The translations under genes were made by a program, and so were the position numbers. A stretch of DNA of 58,942 bases from an uncultured bacterium (lineage in GTDB: Bacteria; Zixibacteria; MSB-5A5; CAIYYT01): contig CAIYYT010000215.1 in NCBI GenBank assembly GCA_903930455.1, positions 1-58,942 of the forward strand, written 5' to 3'. The notes under the pieces were generated by a model. The model saw nothing but the letters and a program-made list of their open reading frames with translations. It was not told the DNA's origin and did no database searches. Positions 7,589 through 22,119 of the stretch are shown piece after piece; the first letter of the stretch is position 1, and every line of letters starts with the position of its first letter.

Positions 7589-9346
7589 CTACGACTTCAA
7601 TTGCTTTTGAGCCAGTTCCTGATACAGCGCCGATTTCTCCAGTAACTCCAGATGCGTCCCCTGATCAACAATTTTGCCGTCTTTGAGGGTGATGATGCGG
7701 TCGGCGCGGCGGACCGTTGCCAGCCGATGGGCGATGATTATCGCCGTCTTGTCAGCGAGGATTTTGTCGAGTGCATCCTGTATCAGTTGCTCGGAGATGG
7801 AATCGAGTGCGCTCGTCGCCTCGTCGAGAATCAAGATCGGCGGGTCTTTGAGGATAGCTCGCGCCAGACAGATTCGCTGCCTTTCGCCACCAGACATCGT
7901 TACTCCGCGCTCGCCAACCCTGCTGTTGTATCCGTCCGGCAGGCCCTCAATGAAGTCATGGATGTTGGCGATTCTGGCAGCGCGAATTATCTGCTCTTTG
8001 TCGGCATCCGGATTGGAATAAGCGATGTTCTCGGCGATGGAGGCATTAAACAACAGTGGATCCTGATCAACCAATGCGATATTGTCACGTAATGACGTCA
8101 GCGACAGTTTGCGGAGATCAACACCATCAATGGTGATTGCGCCCCGTTCTGGATCGAAGAAACGCATAACGAGACTGATCAACGTCGTCTTACCGGAGCC
8201 GGATGGCCCCACAATCGCCAGGGTTTCTTTGGCGTGAATCTGCAGATTGAAGTTGTCAAGCCGGAAAGCGTTATCATCATAGCCGAAGGCGACATCGCGT
8301 AGTTCGATCGTGCCATGCGCTCTCGATATAACCGTCGGTTCAGGATCTTCTCTTACTTCCGGTGGAATATCGAGATACTCGAAAACCCGGTTGACGGACG
8401 CCATTGCCACTGAAATCTCGATTCTGGCAAACGCCAATCCTTGCACTGGTGAATAGAGGTAGGCGAGCAGAACATAGAATGCAATCAACGCTCCCAGCTT
8501 CATCGCGCCGGACGCAACCAGATATGCTCCCGCCGACAGCACCACGATTGGGCCGATCATACTAATGAAGGTCACGACGTTGACCGACAGCGACCGGACG
8601 ACGCTGAATCTGACGAGCAATCCAGTAAATCCGCTCAGAATGCCATCTATTCTTCGCCGCTCCAGTCTTTCCCTGCCGAACGCCTTGATAATTTTGATCC
8701 CGACCAATGCCTCTTGCGTCTTGGCGGATAGATCGGCTGTCGTCTCCTGAATCTTGCGAGAAACAATCTGCATACGTTTGCCAAATTTATTGGTAACCCA
8801 AATCGTCAGAGGCACAGGAACGATGGCAATCAGTGTCAGTTGCCAATTTACGTTAAGCAAGTAGATGAGTATCGCGAGCAGCATAAGGACGTTGGTAAGG
8901 AGCATTAGCAGAGTCGAAGTCAACAAGTCCTGAATGCGGGAGACATCGCTCAGCATGCGCGACATGATCTCGCCAACTTGTCGTCGTTGATAGAATTTGA
9001 GGGACAGGTTCTCGAGATGCCAGAACAGCCCCGACCTGATGTCGGCGATGATTCTGGCGCCGATGTAGCCCACCAAGTAGTCGCGTATCCATGACAGGCC
9101 AATTTGGGCCAAGTAAATGCCTATCAGCACAGATCCAAATGTGACGACGGGTCCGAGATTGATACCGTTGGCGGAGACCTTGGCGAGCTTAGGAATTAGC
9201 CCATCAATCAGATACTGAAGTGCAATCGGCAACGCCAACGCCAGTCCTGCCAGACAAGCCATCACCAAGAAGGTTAGTGACTCAAGCCCCCAGTAGGGCT
9301 GCAACAGTTTCCAGAGCCGTTTAGCTTTGTCAGTTTCTAAGATCAT
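7589..9346 (-). CDS. ABC exporter with fused membrane and ATPase domains (MsbA/LmrA type)
   Basis: A 585-residue half-transporter. Six membrane helices fill residues 1-320, followed by an ATPase domain with Walker A GPSGSGKTT, Q-loop VDQDPLLF, signature TMSGGERQRICLARA, Walker B ILILDEATSALD and H-loop IIAHRLATV. The ATG at 9346 has AAAGGGA upstream. It lacks the N-terminal C39 peptidase domain that some RiPP exporters use to cut leaders. It lies 215 bases downstream of two radical SAM genes on the same strand, so I infer that it exports the modified peptide encoded at 12289-12970. A lipid or general exporter role cannot be excluded. Confidence 0.93.
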   Translation of the reverse strand: MILETDKAKRLWKLLQPYWGLESLTFLVMACLAGLALALPIALQYLIDGLIPKLAKVSANGINLGPVVTFGSVLIGIYLAQIGLSWIRDYLVGYIGARIIADIRSGLFWHLENLSLKFYQRRQVGEIMSRMLSDVSRIQDLLTSTLLMLLTNVLMLLAILIYLLNVNWQLTLIAIVPVPLTIWVTNKFGKRMQIVSRKIQETTADLSAKTQEALVGIKIIKAFGRERLERRRIDGILSGFTGLLVRFSVVRSLSVNVVTFISMIGPIVVLSAGAYLVASGAMKLGALIAFYVLLAYLYSPVQGLAFARIEISVAMASVNRVFEYLDIPPEVREDPEPTVISRAHGTIELRDVAFGYDDNAFRLDNFNLQIHAKETLAIVGPSGSGKTTLISLVMRFFDPERGAITIDGVDLRKLSLTSLRDNIALVDQDPLLFNASIAENIAYSNPDADKEQIIRAARIANIHDFIEGLPDGYNSRVGERGVTMSGGERQRICLARAILKDPPILILDEATSALDSISEQLIQDALDKILADKTAIIIAHRLATVRRADRIITLKDGKIVDQGTHLELLEKSALYQELAQKQLKS

Positions 9347-9561
9347 GGTCCCTTTCGGTGTCTCGCTCGGTAAGATACATTCACGGGACCGCTTTCACAA
9401 ATGCAAAGTGGCGTTTGATTTCCACGAGGACATGTTTGATATGGTGGCAAAAAACTGGTGTCGCGTAAATGGATACGACGCATTTCCCGTGACTAGTATC
9501 CGATCGGATTGACCAGCCAAGGTGTGCGCGAGAGAATGAAACTATCCCGACAGCGCAAATG

Positions 9562-10668
9562 CTATTGCGTCGGTGGAGCCTGAAATTGCTTCAGCAATTG
9601 CGTTACTACCTCGGGATCCGGTGGCGCCGGAATTCCCTGTGCTTGCTCGAGTTGATAGATGCAGTACGGGTTGTCCGCCCGACAACCGCTAGCAGAAACA
9701 GATGTTGTCGTGCAGCCGCCACGGCAGAGAGGCAGGTACTTGCATTCATGACAGGCACCGGCAGCCGTTTCTTTCGTAAACTTGCGGTTGTAGGCGAACC
9801 CGTCCGGGTTGTTCCATATCTCTGTCAGAGACTTTTCCCGAATATTCCCTTCGACAAACTCCTCGGGCATTGACAGGCATCCCTTGATGTTGCCGTTTGA
9901 CTCAACGCCCAGGATGCGCATGCCGGCGTAACAGCCGAGATAGGGCGATTCCCCCCACAACTGTGTGCCGAGTTGTCCATAGTAACCGATGTTTTCGCCG
10001 ACGTCGACACGAATTTCGTCGTTTTTCTTTTGAAATTCGAGAATCTTGGTGATCAGTTTCGGGTAGTTATCCAGTGACAGCACCAATTCTCGATTGCCCT
10101 TCATGCGACCGGTTGACGTGCAAAGCTGGATTCGCCACAGGTGACAACCGGCATCGATTAGAGCCTGACGCAAACCATCCAACTCTTCGATATTAATGTT
10201 GGAGACCTGAGAAACGGCACAGTAGCCAAAAGCGTTTCGCTTCGACATCATTCCAATGGCGCCCACTGCCCCAGCGAAGCTTCCCTCCCGCTGGCGAATG
10301 TAATCGTGCGTTTTCTCCATACCATCAATGCTGACGCCAACGGTCACCATCGGGACACTCTCGAAGTCGTCGACAATCTTTTCGGTGATTGCCAGTCCGT
10401 TGGTTACCATCAGCGGTCTCATTCCTCGCGCTCTGATTCTTTTCGCCAGCGTTAACCAATCACTACGCAATAGCGGCTCACCGCCGGAAAGAGTGATATT
10501 GTCGGTACCGAGTTCCGCCAACTCATCAATCAACTTCAATGCTTCGTCCGTTGTCAATTCATCCGGTCTCTTCTTGCCTGCCGAAGTGCCGCAATGAAGA
10601 CAGCGCATACTGCAGGCAAAGGTAGTTTCCCAGACCACCGCCCACGGGAAGAATTTGAACTCGGTCAT
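9562..10668 (-). CDS. Radical SAM/SPASM peptide-modifying enzyme (second maturase)
   Basis: A 368-residue enzyme. The CX3CX2C motif (C19, C23, C26 in TFACSMRCLHC) holds the S-adenosylmethionine-binding 4Fe-4S cluster, and LSGGEPLLR lies near residue 60. The C-terminal SPASM domain has the Cys pattern of auxiliary cluster sites: GNIKGCLSM, then CHECKYLPLCRGGC, then two further Cys. It resembles PqqE/SkfB-type maturases of ribosomal peptides. Its ATG overlaps the stop of the upstream radical SAM gene as ATGA, so the two are translationally coupled. I infer that it works on the two small peptides encoded upstream. Confidence 0.92.
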   Translation of the reverse strand: MTEFKFFPWAVVWETTFACSMRCLHCGTSAGKKRPDELTTDEALKLIDELAELGTDNITLSGGEPLLRSDWLTLAKRIRARGMRPLMVTNGLAITEKIVDDFESVPMVTVGVSIDGMEKTHDYIRQREGSFAGAVGAIGMMSKRNAFGYCAVSQVSNINIEELDGLRQALIDAGCHLWRIQLCTSTGRMKGNRELVLSLDNYPKLITKILEFQKKNDEIRVDVGENIGYYGQLGTQLWGESPYLGCYAGMRILGVESNGNIKGCLSMPEEFVEGNIREKSLTEIWNNPDGFAYNRKFTKETAAGACHECKYLPLCRGGCTTTSVSASGCRADNPYCIYQLEQAQGIPAPPDPEVVTQLLKQFQAPPTQ

Positions 10669-12020
10669 ACTTGCTCCTTAGGTGTCGCTTGAACCTGTTG
10701 CTGCCGTGATCTGGCAATGATCTCCAGCATCGGCGTAAGATTATGTTTCCAACTCTGGCACATCTGCTCGCCAACAAGACCTTGATCAGTGCGCTGAGCC
10801 GGGCAACCGCCCATACATATTGGCAAGATGCTGCAATCCCTGCACATTTCGTCTTCAAAGGGACTGAAGCTGAACAATCGTGTGAAATTCGGGTGCTGAT
10901 AGTTGATCTTGTCACGGACATTTCCCATGGACTTATCGGTATCGCCGACATGATTCCAACAGCGATAGAGAAAACCTTCGGAATCGATCAAAAACGCATT
11001 AACTCGATGCACCATGCAGAAAGTCGCACTCGGTCGAGGCAGTTTCTCGATGCGGAAGCCCTGGTCAAGAAGCAGCCGACAATAGTCAATCTCGACATCC
11101 GAAAAACCGGCATTGTCATAGCAGGTCTCGGCAATGGCGGCACAAGAGATTGACGCCGGCTCCAATTGCGCGAAATACACCGCAACCTTGCCTTGCAGGT
11201 CTGCTTGTTTCAACTCCGCTAGCAATTCGATAATCTCGGCGGCCTCCAAGTTTTTGTCGACATTGACTCTGACCGAGACCATCAGCTTGGTAGCCGCGTA
11301 CTTGAGATTCTCCAAGATTGTCTCGTAGCTCTCCCTGCCATTCTTGAGTGGTCGCTTCTGATTATGCAACCGCGCGGGACCGTCCAGTGTTACTTGACAT
11401 ACCGACACATGGTAGCCAACCAGACGATCGACTACTTCCTTGGTAAGGAGGTACCCATTGGTCACTATTGACGAAGTGTAAGTGAATTGCTTTTCCTCAC
11501 CAAGCCGGATCAGGGATTCGGAAAGCTCACTAATCACGTCCATGGCCAGCAATGGTTCGCCGCCGTACCAGTTGACGTCAACTTGATCCAAGCTCCTGGC
11601 CTGCTTGTCAACAAAACTGACAATGGATTTGATCACCTCGGGGGACATCTTGCCGCGCTTATTGCTCTCGTAACAATATGGGCACGCCATGTTGCAGGCC
11701 ATCGTCGGCGCCAACACCAGACCCAGTTTCGTCATATCATACCTCACCATGCCGTGCTGGAACTTAAGCGCTTCCAATTCGTCAGTATTCTCACGATACA
11801 TGAAGAGTCCGTACTCAAGCTGCTTGAGCAATTCCAGTTCAGGAGGAGTTAGACTAGTGACCGCTTCGCGGCCGTCGTTCGATAGTTTGTCGACAAGTTG
11901 CTGGTAGGTTTGATAGTTGGCTTCGGTCATCAGCGCTACAGCACCAGTGCGCGAATTGAATGCTATATAGTATCCATCATGCCAAGGTTGGAAATGACTA
12001 TATCGAGAGACTCTGCTCAT
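10665..12020 (-). CDS. Radical SAM/SPASM peptide maturase (first maturase)
   Basis: With the ATG at 12020 this is a 451-residue protein. Residues 1-95 (RYSHFQPWHDGYYIAFNSRT and on) look like the N-terminal extension typical of peptide-modifying radical SAM enzymes. The cluster motif is CNMACPYCY (C109, C113, C116), followed by NWYGGEPLLA. The SPASM region has FLYRCW, then CRDCSILPICMGGCPA, then a final C. The frame is open 52 codons upstream to 12176, but a likely promoter at 12183-12211 would start transcription near there, so I favour 12020. It lies downstream of two peptide genes, each closed by its own terminator, and upstream of a second SPASM enzyme and an exporter. Confidence 0.92.
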   Translation of the reverse strand: MSRVSRYSHFQPWHDGYYIAFNSRTGAVALMTEANYQTYQQLVDKLSNDGREAVTSLTPPELELLKQLEYGLFMYRENTDELEALKFQHGMVRYDMTKLGLVLAPTMACNMACPYCYESNKRGKMSPEVIKSIVSFVDKQARSLDQVDVNWYGGEPLLAMDVISELSESLIRLGEEKQFTYTSSIVTNGYLLTKEVVDRLVGYHVSVCQVTLDGPARLHNQKRPLKNGRESYETILENLKYAATKLMVSVRVNVDKNLEAAEIIELLAELKQADLQGKVAVYFAQLEPASISCAAIAETCYDNAGFSDVEIDYCRLLLDQGFRIEKLPRPSATFCMVHRVNAFLIDSEGFLYRCWNHVGDTDKSMGNVRDKINYQHPNFTRLFSFSPFEDEMCRDCSILPICMGGCPAQRTDQGLVGEQMCQSWKHNLTPMLEIIARSRQQQVQATPKEQV

Positions 12021-12182
12021 GCCGTCTGATACTCTCTTTTCACCTGTGGGGCGTCTCCTGCATCCCGGCCTCTGGCGATCATCTCTCATACCCGGTGGCA
12101 CCGATGGCCAAACCGGATAGTTGCATAGAGGGCAGCAGGAAATACCCGAGTAATCGAGGCCGATTTCCGGCGTCAATACTAA

Positions 12183-12211
12183 TCAATACATGATTTGCGG
12201 GGATTTGTCAA
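12183..12211 (-). promoter_or_regulatory. Probable promoter for the two radical SAM genes
   Basis: On the minus strand TTGACA (12206-12211) is followed after 17 bases by TATTGA (12183-12188). The -35 box is perfect and the -10 is weak. It lies between the terminator of the last peptide gene and the first maturase, so the enzymes may be transcribed separately from the peptides. Confidence 0.5.
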
Positions 12212-12242
12212 GGCAGTTTTGGTCTGGTTCGCGGTCGACAAC

Positions 12243-12280
12243 GAATATGAAAAAGAAAAGGGAGGACCAAAGTCCTCCCT
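12243..12280 (-). terminator. Rho-independent terminator after peptide gene A
   Basis: On the minus strand a perfect 9-bp stem (AGGGAGGAC/GTCCTCCCT, loop TTTG) begins eight bases after the stop codon of the peptide gene. It is followed by TTTTCTTTTTC. It should limit read-through into the maturase genes, giving more peptide than enzyme. Confidence 0.85.
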
Positions 12281-12288
12281 ACCGCTTA

Positions 12289-12396
12289 CTACACGGCGAC
12301 CGGAGGAACGCCGTACAACGGGACCATTCTAAAGCAGAACTTCAGGATGCAACCGTTGATTGTGCCGGCTTCCTGCGGATCAACTAAATAGATCAT
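12289..12396 (-). CDS. RiPP-type precursor peptide A (35 aa)
   Basis: A 35-codon gene, too short for usual ORF cut-offs. AGGAGG lies just before the ATG at 12396. The peptide begins MIYLVDPQEAGTI, continues NGCILKFCFRMVPLYGVP and ends PVAV. The first 31 residues are identical to those of peptide B encoded at 12863-12970, and only residues 32-34 differ. Two Cys (C16 and C21) lie in a hydrophobic-aromatic core. The gene is upstream of two radical SAM/SPASM maturases and an exporter, and is closed by its own terminator. I infer a ribosomal peptide precursor modified at or near the Cys residues. I do not recognise a named family, and the leader/core boundary is unknown. Confidence 0.85.
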   Translation of the reverse strand: MIYLVDPQEAGTINGCILKFCFRMVPLYGVPPVAV

Positions 12397-12421
12397 TTAG
12401 AGACCTCCTGTGATGGGTTTT

Positions 12422-12475
12422 GGGTCATGCTGATGGGCTTGTGACCCATCCCGTATCAAGGAACTTTTTGATACG
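12422..12475 (-). promoter_or_regulatory. Conserved leader hairpins upstream of peptide gene A
   Basis: Two inverted repeats lie 26-80 bases before the peptide start and are kept in both copies. One is CGTATCAA/TTGATACG around an 8-base loop (12452-12475). The other is GGGTCA/TGACCC around 14 bases (12422-12447). They may be mRNA leader structures or operators. Confidence 0.5.
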
Positions 12476-12715
12476 ACAATATCATTACTTGGGATTATTT
12501 GTACTGTCTTGATGAAGAATGACACACCGTTTCGACACATGCAACACCTACGCTGCAGGTCTCTCGCCGGAGACCACTTGTGATTGACTGAAATGAACCA
12601 TATAATGTGTTTGCGATAATGACCGCCGAGTCAGAACAAACTACTAGTATCAGTTGGAAAGGTAGGTTTTTTTGTGGCAATGTCAAGGAGTACTTGCTTG
12701 CCATCAAAGGCAGTG

Positions 12716-12806
12716 TTATCTAAGACCGACAACGCCTTCCGCGTTAGCACCTTGGGGTAAATGCATTTCGCAGCACAATTGCTTCGGCGAGTCGCTAACG
12801 ATTAGG
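12716..12806 (-). pseudogene. Relic of the hybrid kinase C-terminus
   Basis: This stretch aligns with the last 30 codons of the kinase gene ending at 13287. Relative to TRQQLAEAVKQQMLSPQSAN it reads R-stop-R-L-A-E-A, then needs a one-base shift (CGAA against CAA) to continue with A-N-A-E-G-V-V-G-L. A stop codon and a frameshift in 30 codons show that it is a non-functional passenger of the tandem duplication. Confidence 0.8.
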
Positions 12807-12819
12807 GATCGGCGATGAC

Positions 12820-12854
12820 TCTGAAAATAAAGAGGGAGGACCGAAGTCCTCCCT
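12820..12854 (-). terminator. Rho-independent terminator after peptide gene B (UUCG tetraloop)
   Basis: On the minus strand AGGGAGGAC-TTCG-GTCCTCCCT forms a perfect 9-bp stem with a stable UUCG loop, starting nine bases after the peptide stop and followed by CTTTATTTTC. It is the counterpart of the terminator after peptide gene A. Confidence 0.85.
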
Positions 12855-12862
12855 ACCGGTTT

Positions 12863-12970
12863 TTACACGGTACCCGTCGGGACGCCGTACAATGGGACCA
12901 TTCTGAAGCAGAACTTCAGTATGCAGCCGTTGATTGTGCCGGCTTCCTGCGGATCAACCAAATAGATCAT
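12863..12970 (-). CDS. RiPP-type precursor peptide B (35 aa)
   Basis: A paralogue of the peptide encoded at 12289-12396. AGGAGG lies just before the ATG at 12970. The peptide is 35 residues and identical to peptide A through residue 31 (ending VPLYGVP), then TGTV instead of PVAV. Many codon differences between the copies are synonymous (for example ATC to ATA and GGT to GGC), which points to protein-level selection. C16 and C21 are conserved. It is first in order behind the hybrid kinase and has its own UUCG terminator. I infer the same maturation route as for peptide A: two radical SAM/SPASM enzymes, then export. Confidence 0.85.
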   Translation of the reverse strand: MIYLVDPQEAGTINGCILKFCFRMVPLYGVPTGTV

Positions 12971-12995
12971 TTAGATACCTCCTGTGATGGGTTTT

Positions 12996-13048
12996 GGGTC
13001 ATGCTGATGGGCTTGCGACCCATCCGTATCAAGGGACTTTTTGATACG
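12996..13048 (-). promoter_or_regulatory. Conserved leader hairpins upstream of peptide gene B
   Basis: The same two inverted repeats as in the other copy: CGTATCAA/TTGATACG (13025-13048) and GGGTC/GACCC (12996-13021). Both stems survive even though loop and flanking bases differ between the copies. Confidence 0.5.
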
Positions 13049-13286
13049 ACAATATCATTGCTTGGAGTTATGCGTGCTATTTTGATGAAGAACGACATAC
13101 TATTCTGGCACATACAGCACCTACGCCACAGGTCTCTCGTCTGAGACGACTAATGACCGACTGGAATGAATCGCATGATGTGTTTGCGACAACTACCGCC
13201 GAGTCAGAACAGACCACTATCAGTTGCCAAAGTAGGGGTTTTTTGTGGCTATGTCAAGGAATATTTGATTGCCGTCAAGAGCAGCG

Positions 13287-15893
13287 CTAGCTGAAACCAA
13301 CAACGCTTTCCGGGTTGGCGCTTTGCGGTGAAAGCATTTGCTGTTTGACTGCCTCAGCGAGTTGCTGACGAGTGTAGGGCTTCTTGAGATAGGCTCCGGC
13401 GCCCATGGCCTGCATTTGTGACACACGGTCGGTAGCGGCAAAGCCGCTGACAATTATGGCCTTTTGGCTGGGATTAAGCTTGAGAATCTCGCGATACGTG
13501 TCCAGGCCATCAAAACCTTTCTCCAAGATCATATCGAGGACGAGCAGATCAACCGGGTGCTCAGTGACATAGGCCACAGCTTCCCGACCGTTCGCAGCCG
13601 TCTTGACCTCATAACCAAGACTCACCAGAATCTGTTCGGCGATCTCTCGCTGTTCCGGCACGTCATCGACCACTAAGATGGTGCCGGTGCCTTCGAGATC
13701 GGCGTCCACTGGAGCGGCCGCGATTGTCGCTTCCTGGCTCACAGGGAAATAGAGGAGGAATTCCGTACCTTTCCCAAGTTCAGAGAGGACGTCGTAATGA
13801 CCCTTATGGTCTTTGATGATTCCATAGACAACCGCCAGACCCAGACCACTGCCACTCGCGCCCATTTGCTTATTAGAGTAATATGGCTGGAAGATCTTCT
13901 GGATGTTGTGCGGGTCGATGCCGACACCGGAATCGCGAATGCTCAGGATGGCATAGTCGTCTTCTGTTATTCTGCTGAAATCGCTGTGCAAATGACTGAG
14001 ATGCTCCTGAGATGTCTTGATTGTCAATGTGCCACCATCAGGCATCGCTTCAAAGGCGTTGACTACAAGATTCATAATGGCTTTCATGAGGTGCGATGAC
14101 GATCCCAGTATGTTGCTTACGCTGTCATCCAAGACAGCGGTCACTGTAACTGCGGGATGAGCCATTTGCAGCGACAGACAATTCGACGATTCCAGGTATT
14201 GTCCGATGACATCGTTGATGCTGGTCGGCTTCAACTCGCACCTCCCCCTTCTGGCCAACGCCAGCAAGTCCTGGATCACGTCGGCAGCGTCCTGGGCGGC
14301 CTTGCCCATGATTGTCAATTGTCGGCGATGCGGACTGTCTGGAGGTAGTTTCATCATTATCAGTTCCGGATAGGCAACGAGCGGGCCAAGGATGTTGTTA
14401 AGATCATGCGCCACTCCTCCCGCCAGCAAACCGAGCGATTCCATCTGCTCTGCCTTTTCCAAGCGTCGCTGCAACGCTTCGCGTTGTTCTTCCGCCTGAA
14501 TGCGCAAGGTCACGTCACGTGCTACGCCGACGATTCCGGCAACCTTGCCGTCCTCAAAAAACGGTTGCTCACTTACCTCAAGCATGATCCGCTGCCCTTG
14601 CTTGTGGCACACTTCTGCTTGATATGGCGGGCAGGCCGTTCCCTCGATGAGAGCTTTTTCCGTATACTCAGCGACCTTGGTGTTGATGGGATTGTCTGTC
14701 AGGAATATCGAATAATGTTGCATCCACTCCTCAGGCGTATAGCCGGTGACAGCTTGCACAGACTGCGAGACATAGCGAAAAATCCCGTTGGTATCATGCC
14801 GGTAAATAAAGTCACGCGCATTCTCAAGGAGAACGCGTTGCTCTTCCGCCAAGGCCGAGACCTTGGCAGTTGTTGCCTTCAGTGCTTGCTCAGAGTGCTT
14901 ATGCTCGACGACTTCGTTGATCAGATTGGCATTTTGCACGAAGAAATGGCTGATCAGACGGGCAATCTGGCCGAACTCGCCTGCGGTCGTTTTCAGCTTC
15001 TCAATAGGCGCCGGATCGTCGTCCGTAAGCGCCGTAGAGATTAGTTTAAGCGGGAGGGTAACCCAGCGACGCATCGTAAGAAAGAGAACAAGTATCAGCA
15101 CACAGAGAAAAGCCAGAATCAGCTCTGAACGCGAGGAAACAGCGCGATTGAGCTCCCTCAGGAATTGCGATTCGCTCTCGCAACGAACCACCGCCAGCGG
15201 CTTGTTGCTCAGGTCGAGCAACGTATCGGCGGTGCGTATCTTTCCCTCTGCCCGGTCAGACGCCCACGGTGGCAAGGCATCCAAGTCTAAGATCACGACA
15301 ATCCGGCTCCCCGCAAGACGCGACAGTTCTTCAACGTACTCCGACGACCAGAGTCGCCCCACGAAAAAGAATCCCCGCGGTGGAGACTCTCGTTTGTTGT
15401 CGGAACTCGGTTGGATGGGCGCGCCAAAGATCTCCAAGACGCCGGAAGACGTCCGGACAAAAAAGTGAGGGAAATGGCCGCGTCGAAAGACGACGGCACT
15501 GGAGTCGCGCGAAATCGGTAATGCCAGTCCGCTCAAGCCGGGAGAATCGGAGGCACAATATACGGGAGCAAGATTCGTGTCGCACACCCAGGCAGCCGAG
15601 GCATTAAACGTGTTCAAAGAGACATCGATATTCTCCTTTGCCCAGGCGCTGTCCCGGTCGTTTACGAACTTGACCATGTCATCCCAGAAACTGTAGTCAT
15701 ACGCCAGAGTCTTCGGTGCGTAGCTCTTGAGATCAATGATCTTGTGTAGCAGTTGATTCTTGGCTTGTTCTTGCTCGCCCATGGTCAGGTCGAGGCGGTA
15801 TGTTTCAGAATGGTGCAACGCGGCCATACCTGCCATGAGTACGCAAATCATCACTACCAACAGTAGCGACAAGCGTGTTTGAACATTAATCAA
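13287..15893 (-). CDS. Hybrid sensor histidine kinase/response regulator (CHASE4-PAS-HisKA-HATPase-REC)
   Basis: An 868-residue membrane sensor. TM1 covers about residues 8-27, followed by a CHASE4-like extracytoplasmic domain (YDYSFWDDMVKFVND). TM2 lies near 260, then a PAS domain with PAC tail (about 345-465). The H-box is GGVAHDLNNILGPL, and the ATPase region has DSGVGI and GSGLGLAVVYGI. The C-terminal receiver has VVDD, the phosphoacceptor in LVLDMIL, and KKPY. The start is TTG at 15893, with GAGGA eight bases upstream. The gene lies directly upstream of the two peptide genes, and its 3' end was copied with them. Whether it controls the peptide locus is not shown by the sequence. Confidence 0.93.
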   Translation of the reverse strand: MINVQTRLSLLLVVMICVLMAGMAALHHSETYRLDLTMGEQEQAKNQLLHKIIDLKSYAPKTLAYDYSFWDDMVKFVNDRDSAWAKENIDVSLNTFNASAAWVCDTNLAPVYCASDSPGLSGLALPISRDSSAVVFRRGHFPHFFVRTSSGVLEIFGAPIQPSSDNKRESPPRGFFFVGRLWSSEYVEELSRLAGSRIVVILDLDALPPWASDRAEGKIRTADTLLDLSNKPLAVVRCESESQFLRELNRAVSSRSELILAFLCVLILVLFLTMRRWVTLPLKLISTALTDDDPAPIEKLKTTAGEFGQIARLISHFFVQNANLINEVVEHKHSEQALKATTAKVSALAEEQRVLLENARDFIYRHDTNGIFRYVSQSVQAVTGYTPEEWMQHYSIFLTDNPINTKVAEYTEKALIEGTACPPYQAEVCHKQGQRIMLEVSEQPFFEDGKVAGIVGVARDVTLRIQAEEQREALQRRLEKAEQMESLGLLAGGVAHDLNNILGPLVAYPELIMMKLPPDSPHRRQLTIMGKAAQDAADVIQDLLALARRGRCELKPTSINDVIGQYLESSNCLSLQMAHPAVTVTAVLDDSVSNILGSSSHLMKAIMNLVVNAFEAMPDGGTLTIKTSQEHLSHLHSDFSRITEDDYAILSIRDSGVGIDPHNIQKIFQPYYSNKQMGASGSGLGLAVVYGIIKDHKGHYDVLSELGKGTEFLLYFPVSQEATIAAAPVDADLEGTGTILVVDDVPEQREIAEQILVSLGYEVKTAANGREAVAYVTEHPVDLLVLDMILEKGFDGLDTYREILKLNPSQKAIIVSGFAATDRVSQMQAMGAGAYLKKPYTRQQLAEAVKQQMLSPQSANPESVVGFS

Positions 15894-17874: not shown

Positions 17875-20800
17875 CTAATCGTTTCGAGAGTCTCTTACAA
17901 TGCCGTATTGTTTGATCCGTCGCTGTAGAGTTGTGTACGACAGATTGAGGGCGCGAGCGACGGCCGACTGGTTCCAATCGAAATCGTTGAGGAGTTCCGT
18001 GATACGGGCTTTCTCACTCTGCGATCCCTTGGCTCGGAGAGTGGTTCGAGCCGAATCTCGAGATCTCAATCCTGCAACCTCAGTTGGCAGCATTTCAATA
18101 TCGATTGATCCATACTGATGTAGGATACACATCTTTTCGACCACATTTCGAAGTTCTCTCACATTGCCAGGCCACGAATAGGCAGTCAATATTTCCAGCG
18201 CCGATCCGGTAAACCGGAGAGCACGGTTTGGCGCAAGAGTGGAGACAAAGTGTTCAATAAGTAACTCAACATCTTCGGGTCGGTCTCGCAAGGGTGGCAG
18301 GATTATCTCGATAGTATTAATTCGATAGTACAAGTCGGAACGAAAACTATGGTTGCTGATCAACTTGTTTAATTCCTTGTTTGTCGCCGCCACAAAGCGA
18401 ACGTCTACCGTTTCCGGAACATTACTACCCACCATTTCGAACTGCTTAGTCTCAATCACCCGCAGCAATTTTGCCTGTGTCGCAAGTGGCATATCGCCGA
18501 TCTCATCGAGGAACAGGGTACCACCGTCAGCAGAATGGAGTCTCCCCTCACGGCGAGCAACTCCCGTGGCCACACCCTTCTCGATGCCGAAGAGCTCGCT
18601 GTCCAGAAGCTCACCGTCAAGTGTAGCGCAGTTGACGCTCACCAGAGGGCCATCACGGTAGGGACTATACTGATGAATCATAGTAGCGAGGATTTCTTTG
18701 CCAGTGCCACTCTCGCCTCTAAGCAGGATCGCTGCGTCTGAGTTTGCGATGATCGGCAGTTTTTCAAGAATATCCTTCATCTCCCTGTTGCGGGTAATTA
18801 ATATTGTTCCTGACCCACGAGCGGCCAGCGTCTTGACTGCTTCGTTTTTTTGCCTCTGGAGCAGATCCAGCGTGCGGGCGTGCGCAAAGGCGACCGCGAT
18901 GAAGTTCGCCACAGACTGTATCAACTCCCTCTCATCAATGCCGAATAGACCGGGCAAGCTGTGATGATCGAGATAGAGCACTCCGATGAGTCTGTCCTGG
19001 GATACGAGCGGCACACAGGCTATCGACAGGATATTATGCACGACAACACTCTTGTAAGATTTTGTCGTTTCGTCCCTCAGCGCATCTTCGACAAACATAC
19101 CTCTGCGGCGATCATACACCGATTGGATGACGCTCTTGCTCAGATTGATGATGTCGCTAAGGCTCTCATGGTCACAGTCAATGGCCGCTTCCACCCGCAA
19201 GTTCTTACCGCCTTCGGTGGAAAGCAGGATCGCTCCCCGTTCGGCACTCGTCTCATCCAGCGCAAGGCGCAGCAATTGCTGCGCTGTTGATTTGTAATCA
19301 GACACGGTATTGAGCAATGATGAAACGTGATGGAAAGCGACATACTTGGAGCGATAAGAGTCCGTCGACGTCGTCAGCCGAGCAAGAGAAGCCTCAATCT
19401 CGCTTGCTATGTCGGGATTAGGGAGCAACTTCGCTAGACGAAGCGCTTCGAGCAGGAATCTCAGGCGAAGACCGGTTTGCTTCGTCGCTTCGTAATATTT
19501 CTCAATCTGAAGCGAGGTATACAGTGCATGGAAGTAGAGACCAACACGCGAATACCTACGGAAGGATTCTTTCAGTCGGGAGCTATCGACACGAATGGAG
19601 CTTTCTTCCGTGCTGTCGAAAGCATGAATGTGACTATAGACTGCCTCAGCAAAAACAGCTGCTGATTCAGTCAGATGTTTTCGCAACAGCTCCGACTCCG
19701 CCACAACACTCTTGACCTCCTCAGAGTAACCGGAGAAAAGAAGCAATGCGATACAGGAGCAGGCTCCAAAGAAATTGCCGCAGCCAATGTATTCCTTGGT
19801 CAACTCGACGCAGGATTCCGGGTCGACCTTCCGTTTTCGCACGAAATCCAGGCATTCGCGTAGCTGTCGAGAATCAAGTAAGTGCACACGATCTTGCGCG
19901 TCTTGAGATATTTTCTCTGCGCGGGATCGCAGGCTTGCCGACAAATCGGCTTTGCCTTGCCAACAATACAGCGTTCCCAGGTAAAGCAGGGATTTGCCCA
20001 GGAGCCAAGGTATGGAAACCGACTCAAAAACAGCGGTCGCATATCGAAGTCCAAACTCTGCTTCACGATATCTTCCTCGGCGAAGGTTCAGCCAGCCCAT
20101 ATTCAGATGATACAAGCCGATGGCTCCGCGGTCGCCGCGTGTTCGAGACACTTCCAAGTAATTGGCGATCGCTCGTTCCGCCTTTTCATATTCTCCGATG
20201 AGCACATAACACGAAAAGAGACTCGCCTCCATAAATGCCCCGCGAGCAATACCACTGCTCGCACAATTGAGCTTTTTCGCTGATGAATGGAATTCTATTG
20301 CTTCCTTGTACTCTCCGCGATCAAAGGAAACCAATCCAAGGTTTGCATAAAGTGGGACCAGACGATCACTATCGACGTACTCAGCACAGTCGCGAATAGC
20401 TGTTTCAAGCACCTCACGAGCATTATTTAGGTTGCCCAGCGTCCACTCGATGCAACCCAAAGCGTTCTGAACAATGAGCTCATGAGTAGCAAGTTTGTGA
20501 TCTTTGGCAATCCTGGCAAGAACTCGGAAGCCCCGTAAGGCGGACCGCGATCGACCTTTTCGATACACAGTCCACAACTGTCTCTCCAACACTTTCAATC
20601 GCAGGTGTAGTATGTCATTCGCTGTGGCAATAGCGTAGGCTCCCTTAAGGAATCGATCATGCTCTTCCTGATCCTTATCTATGGCGTACAAGTCTGCCTG
20701 CTGAAGGTGCACATGGATCTGCTTGGTTGGCGACAAGTGGTTCGAGGCCAAAGCCCGTATGAAATCCTGTCGCGCATCTGCCACAAAACCCGAGAGCCGA

Positions 20801-22119
20801 CAACACTCCCCGAGTCGCACGTAAAGCGAAGCTCGATTCTTTGCCGAAATTTCGTCAGAATCGCTTTCGAGCAATCGTTTCAGCAGGATAGCGGCTTTGA
20901 GAAACCGTCCCTTGGCTTTCAGCTTCAGAGCTGTGCGGGCAATCTGTACACAAGATATCGCAGGTTGTGATGCTGTATTCGGCGATGCAGCACCATCTAT
21001 CCGAGCATACAACTCTTCGATGTCACCCAGCGAGGGAGAAACATAGAAGTGGTCAGCGTAACGCTCAACGGAAGTCTCTGACACAACCTTGCGAGCAACT
21101 CTATACTTGTCAGAATGCGACATAAGGCTTGTCGCTTCAAAGTCATTCGCCAGCTCGAGCGGAATGCCCAGAAGCTTGACATCATGTGTCAAAAATTGCA
21201 GAAGACCTTTGTGTGATCCATTCGTCTCCTTCTGCCACATGTAGTAACGGGTCCTAATCACGTGCCAAAGTAAGTGATTCTCGTAGCGGGAAGCATCTAT
21301 CGCAAGCTGGCTTCCGTGTTCGCGAAGTAGGTGACCGAGATTCGCCGGCCGTTCAACATGATGGTAATGTGACAGAGAGTTGACAATGGGCACCAAACCT
21401 CCCATTTGGCGACACAAGTCGTCCCGGGTTACCTGGAGCTCCTGATGACTTCCGTCGGCCACGTTTCTTAACTGCACTTCGAGCTTAGACGGACTATTGT
21501 GTGACATGAGAAGCAGCATAACACCGAGAGAGTAGTGGTCTGACTGCGGAAGCACTATCTCGTTTCGCAGAATCTCGGGAGCTATATGCAGAGGCGAACC
21601 GAATACCAGACCCTCTGGCTGCATGCCACTTGCGGTAAGAAGATCAAAGTCTGAAAGCAGGACTCTGTGCGTTTCGCCCCGGCACAAAATCCGGAAATTG
21701 TCCTTTTTCAGGTCGCAATGAACATACCCCATGCAGTGGATGAAATCTACGGCTGAGAATATCTGGAGTAGGAGTTCTTGGTAGTTGCGCCGGAACATCT
21801 CAGTATCGAGATCAACACTTTCAGAAACGTACGGATACACAACATTGTACATTCCGTCCCGTTCAAACCCGCTGATCGGAGAAAGTACGTTCGGATGTCT
21901 AAAGTGACAGGCACTCTCAAAACTGTGCTTCAGGATGCGGCCACAATCGTCCTGGGACATCGACGAACCTTCTGCTGGCCTTTTGACCAGAACTTTCCGC
22001 CTTAGTCTCCGATCAAACCCGACGAATGACTCAAATAGATTGCCTGTGGCGATTCTTGTTTGAAGCTCGAATCGTTCAGCAGAATTATAGGCATCCAAGG
22101 AAGGCTCCGCGGCTCTCAA
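17875..22119 (-). CDS. Giant Ser/Thr kinase-TPR-GAF-AAA+-Fis transcriptional regulator
   Basis: A 1414-residue fusion. Residues 15-290 form a Hanks-type kinase-like domain with Lys in VLVKRP, catalytic loop HCDLKKDN (134-141) and DFD in place of DFG (157-159). The Gly-rich loop is poor, so kinase activity is uncertain. TPR-type helices follow (about 390-900), then a GAF domain (about 940-1090). An AAA+ domain has Walker A GESGTGKE (from 1135), GGTLFLDEIGD and YSWPGNVRELRNVV. A C-terminal Fis-type helix-turn-helix (DFDWNQSAVARALNLSYTTL) ends the protein. The sigma-54 contact loop GAFTGA is GVATGV (1182-1187). The start is uncertain: TTG at 22119, or TTG at 22098 with GGAG upstream. Confidence 0.9.
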   Translation of the reverse strand: MRAAEPSLDAYNSAERFELQTRIATGNLFESFVGFDRRLRRKVLVKRPAEGSSMSQDDCGRILKHSFESACHFRHPNVLSPISGFERDGMYNVVYPYVSESVDLDTEMFRRNYQELLLQIFSAVDFIHCMGYVHCDLKKDNFRILCRGETHRVLLSDFDLLTASGMQPEGLVFGSPLHIAPEILRNEIVLPQSDHYSLGVMLLLMSHNSPSKLEVQLRNVADGSHQELQVTRDDLCRQMGGLVPIVNSLSHYHHVERPANLGHLLREHGSQLAIDASRYENHLLWHVIRTRYYMWQKETNGSHKGLLQFLTHDVKLLGIPLELANDFEATSLMSHSDKYRVARKVVSETSVERYADHFYVSPSLGDIEELYARIDGAASPNTASQPAISCVQIARTALKLKAKGRFLKAAILLKRLLESDSDEISAKNRASLYVRLGECCRLSGFVADARQDFIRALASNHLSPTKQIHVHLQQADLYAIDKDQEEHDRFLKGAYAIATANDILHLRLKVLERQLWTVYRKGRSRSALRGFRVLARIAKDHKLATHELIVQNALGCIEWTLGNLNNAREVLETAIRDCAEYVDSDRLVPLYANLGLVSFDRGEYKEAIEFHSSAKKLNCASSGIARGAFMEASLFSCYVLIGEYEKAERAIANYLEVSRTRGDRGAIGLYHLNMGWLNLRRGRYREAEFGLRYATAVFESVSIPWLLGKSLLYLGTLYCWQGKADLSASLRSRAEKISQDAQDRVHLLDSRQLRECLDFVRKRKVDPESCVELTKEYIGCGNFFGACSCIALLLFSGYSEEVKSVVAESELLRKHLTESAAVFAEAVYSHIHAFDSTEESSIRVDSSRLKESFRRYSRVGLYFHALYTSLQIEKYYEATKQTGLRLRFLLEALRLAKLLPNPDIASEIEASLARLTTSTDSYRSKYVAFHHVSSLLNTVSDYKSTAQQLLRLALDETSAERGAILLSTEGGKNLRVEAAIDCDHESLSDIINLSKSVIQSVYDRRRGMFVEDALRDETTKSYKSVVVHNILSIACVPLVSQDRLIGVLYLDHHSLPGLFGIDERELIQSVANFIAVAFAHARTLDLLQRQKNEAVKTLAARGSGTILITRNREMKDILEKLPIIANSDAAILLRGESGTGKEILATMIHQYSPYRDGPLVSVNCATLDGELLDSELFGIEKGVATGVARREGRLHSADGGTLFLDEIGDMPLATQAKLLRVIETKQFEMVGSNVPETVDVRFVAATNKELNKLISNHSFRSDLYYRINTIEIILPPLRDRPEDVELLIEHFVSTLAPNRALRFTGSALEILTAYSWPGNVRELRNVVEKMCILHQYGSIDIEMLPTEVAGLRSRDSARTTLRAKGSQSEKARITELLNDFDWNQSAVARALNLSYTTLQRRIKQYGIVRDSRND

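Follow-up and report, generated by a model that had tools for sequence, protein, structure and literature searches.

A two-enzyme SPASM cassette of Zixibacteria that looks like an undescribed radical SAM peptide family with a C-terminal P-x-Y-G motif

Among the described systems closest to the one reported here is Clo7bot, i.e., a short Cys peptide (TIGR04333) with its radical S-adenosylmethionine (SAM) maturase (TIGR04334). The present system lies on contig CAIYYT010000215.1 of an uncultured member of the phylum Zixibacteria, of which a stretch of 58,942 nucleotides was analysed (hereafter, the window), and comprises two precursor peptide genes, two radical SAM/SPASM enzyme genes (rSAM1 and rSAM2) and an ATP-binding cassette (ABC) exporter gene (Table 1). 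As in Clo7bot, a short Cys peptide with a similar first 25 residues is encoded, and rSAM1 aligns end to end with TIGR04334 (337 bits, cut-off 600). However, neither maturase nor peptide belongs to Clo7bot by the NCBIfam cut-offs: TIGR04333 weakly matches five of 17 members of the peptide family (best 20.5 bits, cut-off 31) and does not match the window peptides. Moreover, the Clo7bot model covers one maturase, whereas the family described here adds a second SPASM enzyme and the C-terminal motif P-x-Y-G.

The ranthipeptide systems of PapB (freyrasin) and CteB/SCIFF share with this family a SPASM enzyme with a RiPP recognition element (RRE; RiPP, ribosomally synthesised and post-translationally modified peptide) and a Cys periodicity of four. 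PapA carries a CX3D motif (PMC9413430). In contrast, the window peptide has no Asp or Glu at the PapB position, and the system possesses an extra SPASM enzyme and a constant C-terminal motif. The gene set of the sactipeptide pair thuricin CD contains two precursors and two SPASM genes, as does the window. The two thuricin CD peptides are named in PMC8326336. Unlike that system, the window has enzymes of different types, one with an RRE-like domain, and precursors that are near-identical duplicates. The nearest solved folds to rSAM2 are SkfB and PqqE (identity 17-24%), and the family peptides are unlike PqqA or SkfA. Scores also stayed below cut-off for the Geopeptide maturase TIGR04280 (186 vs. 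400 bits), PqqE (75 vs. 381 bits) and the mycofactocin maturase (147 vs. 265 bits); indeed, the maturases fall below all equivalog cut-offs, and the window peptides match no model in NCBIfam or Pfam. No published description of the P-x-Y-G motif or of a Zixibacteria radical SAM RiPP was found in a literature search that left subscription journals and most preprints outside. The system thus looks like an undescribed radical SAM RiPP family whose peptides have an architecture of their own.

This architecture, overlooked in an initial annotation made from the window sequence alone, has three parts. It opens with a short, constant leader, M-x-[YF]-L-[IV]-D-P, continues with a middle that varies and is rich in Cys, often as CX3C, and closes at the C-terminus with P-x-Y-G-[VI], which is again constant. 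In 79 distinct members with P-x-Y-[GS], M1, P7 and the motif Pro and Tyr are invariant, the Met, the Pro and the Tyr/Pro having partly served as collection criteria; position 3 is Y or F, and position 4 is L or I. Each peptide contains one to six Cys, the first nearly always at residues 14-18, and the middle up to the motif varies in length. Of 146 Cys-Cys spacings, 102 equal 4. The motif Pro stands 4-8 residues past the last Cys in all 79 members, mostly 4 or 6, and none has a Cys within three residues of it, where about half would be expected to at the 21% Cys content of this stretch. The window peptide follows the family plan, with C16, C21, P26 and Y28 and the shared tail Pro-Leu-Tyr-Gly, and one copy at another locus (L123), GCKGVYHPLYGIP, is a single-Cys member.

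In the window, the two 35-codon minus-strand frames with residues 1-31 identical, their AGGAGG sites, the hairpins, the overlap of the enzyme genes and the exporter were all found where the initial annotation had placed them. Copies A and B differ only in the tail (TGTV in A, PVAV in B), each is immediately preceded at its ATG by ACAGGAGG, and each is followed by a 9-bp G+C-rich hairpin with a T-rich tail. As a general feature of the family, a terminator after the precursor was rejected (24 of 84 vs. 10.8 expected); it is present in the window's closest relatives. The twin precursors arose by tandem duplication of ~570 bp, a unit that extends into the 3′ end of the histidine-kinase gene lying upstream. 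This kinase was considered as a cassette part and set aside, as it adjoins the cassette in the window and in a sister species (G001), not generally. The sister species has the same locus with a single precursor copy, its rSAM1 and rSAM2 being 95% and 97% identical to those of the window. The copies are separated by seven synonymous and at most four non-synonymous changes, i.e., a ratio of non-synonymous to synonymous change (pN/pS) of 0.17, which together with homologous peptides in the same gene order across the phylum shows that the frames did not arise by chance. The rSAM1 stop ends at 10665 and the rSAM2 start is at 10668, giving an ATGA overlap; the rSAM1 frame is open from a TTG at 12176, and the ATG at 12020 is the likeliest start by homology.

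A search with a single peptide already matched relatives in other families of the phylum. A profile was then built from 17 peptides and used on 133 Zixibacteria genomes, followed by reading of the neighbourhoods. It matched in 38 genomes, one of which (G131) holds an ILPP-type peptide (see below), leaving 37, i.e., about a quarter. rSAM2 is present in 36, the same 36 being returned by a separate search of the phylum. Peptide and rSAM2 occur together in 34 genomes, rSAM2 only in 2, the peptide only in 3 and neither in 94 (Fisher p 8.5e-26, to be taken as a guide only, as genomes within one genus are not independent). In the peptide-only genomes (G004, G103 and G127) the contigs end inside or before the enzymes, and in one of the rSAM2-only genomes (G068) the contig begins inside rSAM1. 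Reading of the neighbourhoods brought the candidate precursor frames to 85 (83 distinct); a ribosome-binding site precedes 84 of them, 81 contain P[L/M/C]Y[G/S], and codon comparison of close pairs gave pN/pS values mostly of 0.04-0.3, indicating purifying selection. The recurrent order on one strand is precursor(s), rSAM1, rSAM2, often a B12-binding radical SAM gene, and the ABC exporter. Precursor, rSAM1 and rSAM2 are in this order at all 34 loci that have them, with the motif in 67 of their 68 peptides, and the exporter follows the enzymes, in the same order, at 24 loci. Homologous small frames beside related SPASM pairs, the initial annotation's own check on its proposal of a precursor-maturase-exporter cassette, have thus been found, and the proposal is borne out by more than 30 genomes, in which the parts are conserved, occur together and keep their order. 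A pattern search of ~85,000 species genomes located related loci nearly all in Candidatus Zixiibacteriota/Zixibacteria, a few others being named generically or differently. One cassette (L119:372-510) is on a 3.1 kb contig of a Calditrichaeota metagenome-assembled genome, a possible transfer or misbinning. In G118 (L144), G105 (L155-L157), G093 (L160), G107 (L138) and G108 (L161), P-x-Y-G precursors occur as orphans, the stretch read around them showing no cassette enzyme.

rSAM1 is, by sequence models and predicted fold, a distant Clo7bot/PapB/SCIFF-type enzyme. In addition to TIGR04334, the TIGR04463, CefB and PapB models match it, each below its cut-off. Its best solved relative is CteB (5wgg/5why), both by sequence profile and by predicted fold (predicted local distance difference test, pLDDT, 76), and the prediction includes a beta3-alpha3 N-terminal domain as in the RRE, the fold of which is described in PMC8326336. 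An RRE-SPASM maturase akin to known ranthipeptide maturases is therefore present, as judged by the PapB, SCIFF and Clo7bot matches below cut-offs and the CteB fold. This kinship and the CX3C spacing in relatives support ranthipeptide-like chemistry, and by analogy rSAM1 likely forms a thioether.

rSAM2, in contrast to rSAM1, begins directly with the radical SAM barrel in its predicted fold (pLDDT 84) and has no N-terminal recognition domain. At four loci (L163, L172, L175 and L179) an rSAM1-type enzyme occurs without rSAM2, next to Cys-rich MNWLV-x-P peptides that lack P-x-Y-G. Likewise, one genome (G106) has a second rSAM1 without its own rSAM2, and the peptides of this copy (MDYLIDPKNFETSLTCCTPQGCYLY...) lack the motif; in the rSAM1 tree this copy falls inside the P-x-Y-G clade. 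Where the second SPASM enzyme is a diverged one, as in a group of sister systems, the peptides end in ILPP instead. This co-variation indicates that the C-terminal motif follows the second enzyme, suggesting that rSAM2 probably acts on P-x-Y-G and that the two enzymes probably differ in their jobs. The initial annotation had treated the enzymes alike and named C16 and C21 as the targets; both residues fit the Cys plan of the family, but a further element, P-x-Y-G, tracks the second enzyme.

One alternative is that P-x-Y-G is a recognition tag, on which a protease, the exporter or an enzyme docks, with both SPASM enzymes acting on the Cys-rich middle. A constant motif beside a variable middle is what would be expected of a recognition element. 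However, the motif is kept at loci with no exporter detected nearby (L035, L038, L143 and L149), it is missing from loci without rSAM2, and a detached tag would not need the distance of 4-8 residues to the last Cys, so that we regard a tag as rather unlikely. We are equally doubtful that the peptide is a RiPP with another rSAM1 chemistry, i.e., sactipeptide alpha-carbon links, carbon-carbon cyclophanes or epimerisation in place of beta- or gamma-carbon thioethers. SPASM enzymes perform all of these, and rSAM1 has weak matches to cyclophane models among others, but the models and folds that fit it best are those of Clo7bot, PapB and SCIFF/CteB, and the near-fixed position of the first Cys speaks against such chemistry.

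A role as redox-cofactor precursor, comparable to that of PqqA for pyrroloquinoline quinone (PQQ) or MftA for mycofactocin, would agree with the invariant Tyr and with the resemblance of rSAM2 to PqqE, NirJ and the mycofactocin maturase. However, a locus may hold up to seven different precursors with divergent middles (L148), a diversity that favours a secreted product over a cofactor; an exporter is also present, and apart from it and radical SAM enzymes no recurring neighbour was identified. A cofactor is therefore considered very improbable. The hairpin after each frame and the duplicated 5′ region might even suggest that the short frames are an attenuator or a structured 5′ region rather than genes. 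Codon-level purifying selection, the almost universal ribosome-binding site and protein motifs kept across deep divergence all contradict this, and an Rfam scan for a riboswitch in the duplicated 5′ region found no family near threshold, which leaves the attenuator the remotest of these explanations.

The reading that we favour, and consider probable from the comparative sequence evidence, is a RiPP cassette in which rSAM1 forms Cys thioethers, rSAM2 acts on P-x-Y-G, the product leaves by MsbA-type export and the leader is cut elsewhere. Encoded precursors are linked to dedicated modifying enzymes at 34 loci, with the co-occurrence given above. rSAM1 would bind the leader through its RRE-like N-terminal domain and join Cys (C16 and C21 in the window) by thioether to side chains of neighbouring residues, like PapB/CteB-type enzymes, while rSAM2, having no RRE, would modify the P-x-Y-G unit, likeliest at Tyr or Pro and perhaps by a further cross-link. 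The product, carried out by the MsbA-type exporter, would probably serve as a signal or an antimicrobial outside the cell. The leader would be cleaved by a protease encoded elsewhere; Pfam finds no peptidase domain in the window exporter, as the initial annotation had stated. The 570-bp duplication would raise the dose of one product rather than diversify it. Several points weigh against this reading. All rSAM1 and rSAM2 scores are far below the cut-offs of named families, which makes the thioether an extrapolation, and sequence alone reveals no chemistry. The window peptide, with its spacings C-x4-C and C-x4-P, lacks the acceptors that PapB uses (Asp/Glu at CX3D). Few independent events underlie the correlation of rSAM2 with P-x-Y-G, the one in G106 falling within the clade, and two loci, L154 (G131) and L142 (G118), hold both enzymes and no local precursor.

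Table 1. Features of the window locus and of related loci (coordinates with a locus prefix refer to that locus)
Feature	Position	Strand	Basis
Precursor peptide copy A, MIYLVDPQEAGTINGCILKFCFRMVPLYGVPTGTV	12863..12970	(-)	35-codon open reading frame with ribosome-binding site, family alignment, purifying selection
Precursor peptide copy B, MIYLVDPQEAGTINGCILKFCFRMVPLYGVPPVAV; residues 1-31 same as copy A	12289..12396	(-)	as copy A
Terminator-like hairpin 3′ of copy A	12833..12854	(-)	
Terminator-like hairpin 3′ of copy B, between peptides and rSAM1	12259..12280	(-)	
Duplicated unit A: kinase gene 3′ end, peptide 5′ region, peptide, hairpin	12802..13339	(-)	direct repeats D1-D3
Duplicated unit B, parts 77-88% identical to unit A	12228..12768	(-)	direct repeats D1-D3
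rSAM1, radical SAM/SPASM maturase, N-terminal RRE-like domain	10665..12020	(-)	models, homology, predicted fold
rSAM2, second radical SAM/SPASM enzyme, without RRE	9562..10668	(-)	models, predicted fold
ABC exporter, MsbA type, fused permease-ATPase, without peptidase domain	7589..9346	(-)	models; order conserved
B12-binding radical SAM gene	L040:5660-7111, L140:6737-8188, ~16 further loci		
MNWLV-x-P Cys-rich peptides next to lone Clo7bot-like SPASM	L163:1538-1861, L172:5931-6176, L175:5541-5747, L179:6026-6420		
ILPP peptides (start like MKFIEKP, KPCPCY)	L162:8047-8460, L165:4430-4528, L166:3060-3164, L169:6520-6909		
ILPP peptides (start like MKFIEKP, KPCPCY), continued	L173:1203-1373, L174:3889-4005, L178:933-1046, L180:3900-4046		

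Further radical SAM genes accompany the cassette elsewhere. About half of the loci carry the B12-binding gene, which lies after rSAM2 and before the exporter. Its product shows weak similarity to models of RiPP C-methyltransferases and of BchE; no match to it was found in the window's genome. Lys precedes the motif in 21 of 36 cases with the B12 enzyme vs. 7 of 26 without, which is suggestive and confounded by kinship. Three loci from two further families (L035, L038 and L154) have an additional radical SAM gene ahead of rSAM1. The ILPP peptides, encoded beside a Clo7bot-like SPASM enzyme and a diverged second one, appear to be a second undescribed family in the phylum, and short peptides starting like [MV]KLI-x-LP with strong ribosome-binding sites lie by diverged SPASM enzymes at L164:5183-5814 and L176:5854-6027. 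Elsewhere in the window, positions 17875-22119 encode a 1414-residue fusion of a Ser/Thr kinase, TPR repeats, GAF, a sigma-54 AAA+ domain and a Fis-type helix-turn-helix.

More tentatively, and with somewhat less confidence than we place in the cassette itself, the family may be a new RiPP class built by two to four radical SAM enzymes on a peptide of 30-50 residues, in which the RRE-SPASM enzyme would form thioethers, rSAM2 would install a new modification or cross-link on P-x-Y-G, held 4-8 residues from the last Cys, and, in about half of the loci, the B12 enzyme would add an extra group. It would be a new class if the action of rSAM2 on P-x-Y-G were confirmed, and the constancy of the motif points to a modification that may be undescribed. 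Loci that have or lack rSAM2, loci that have or lack the B12 enzyme, and the ILPP sisters offer natural comparisons that make it directly testable how paired radical SAM enzymes share the work. For this uncultured phylum, the finding would mean a widespread, previously unnamed natural-product family, with ~80 distinct precursors in 37 of 133 genomes.
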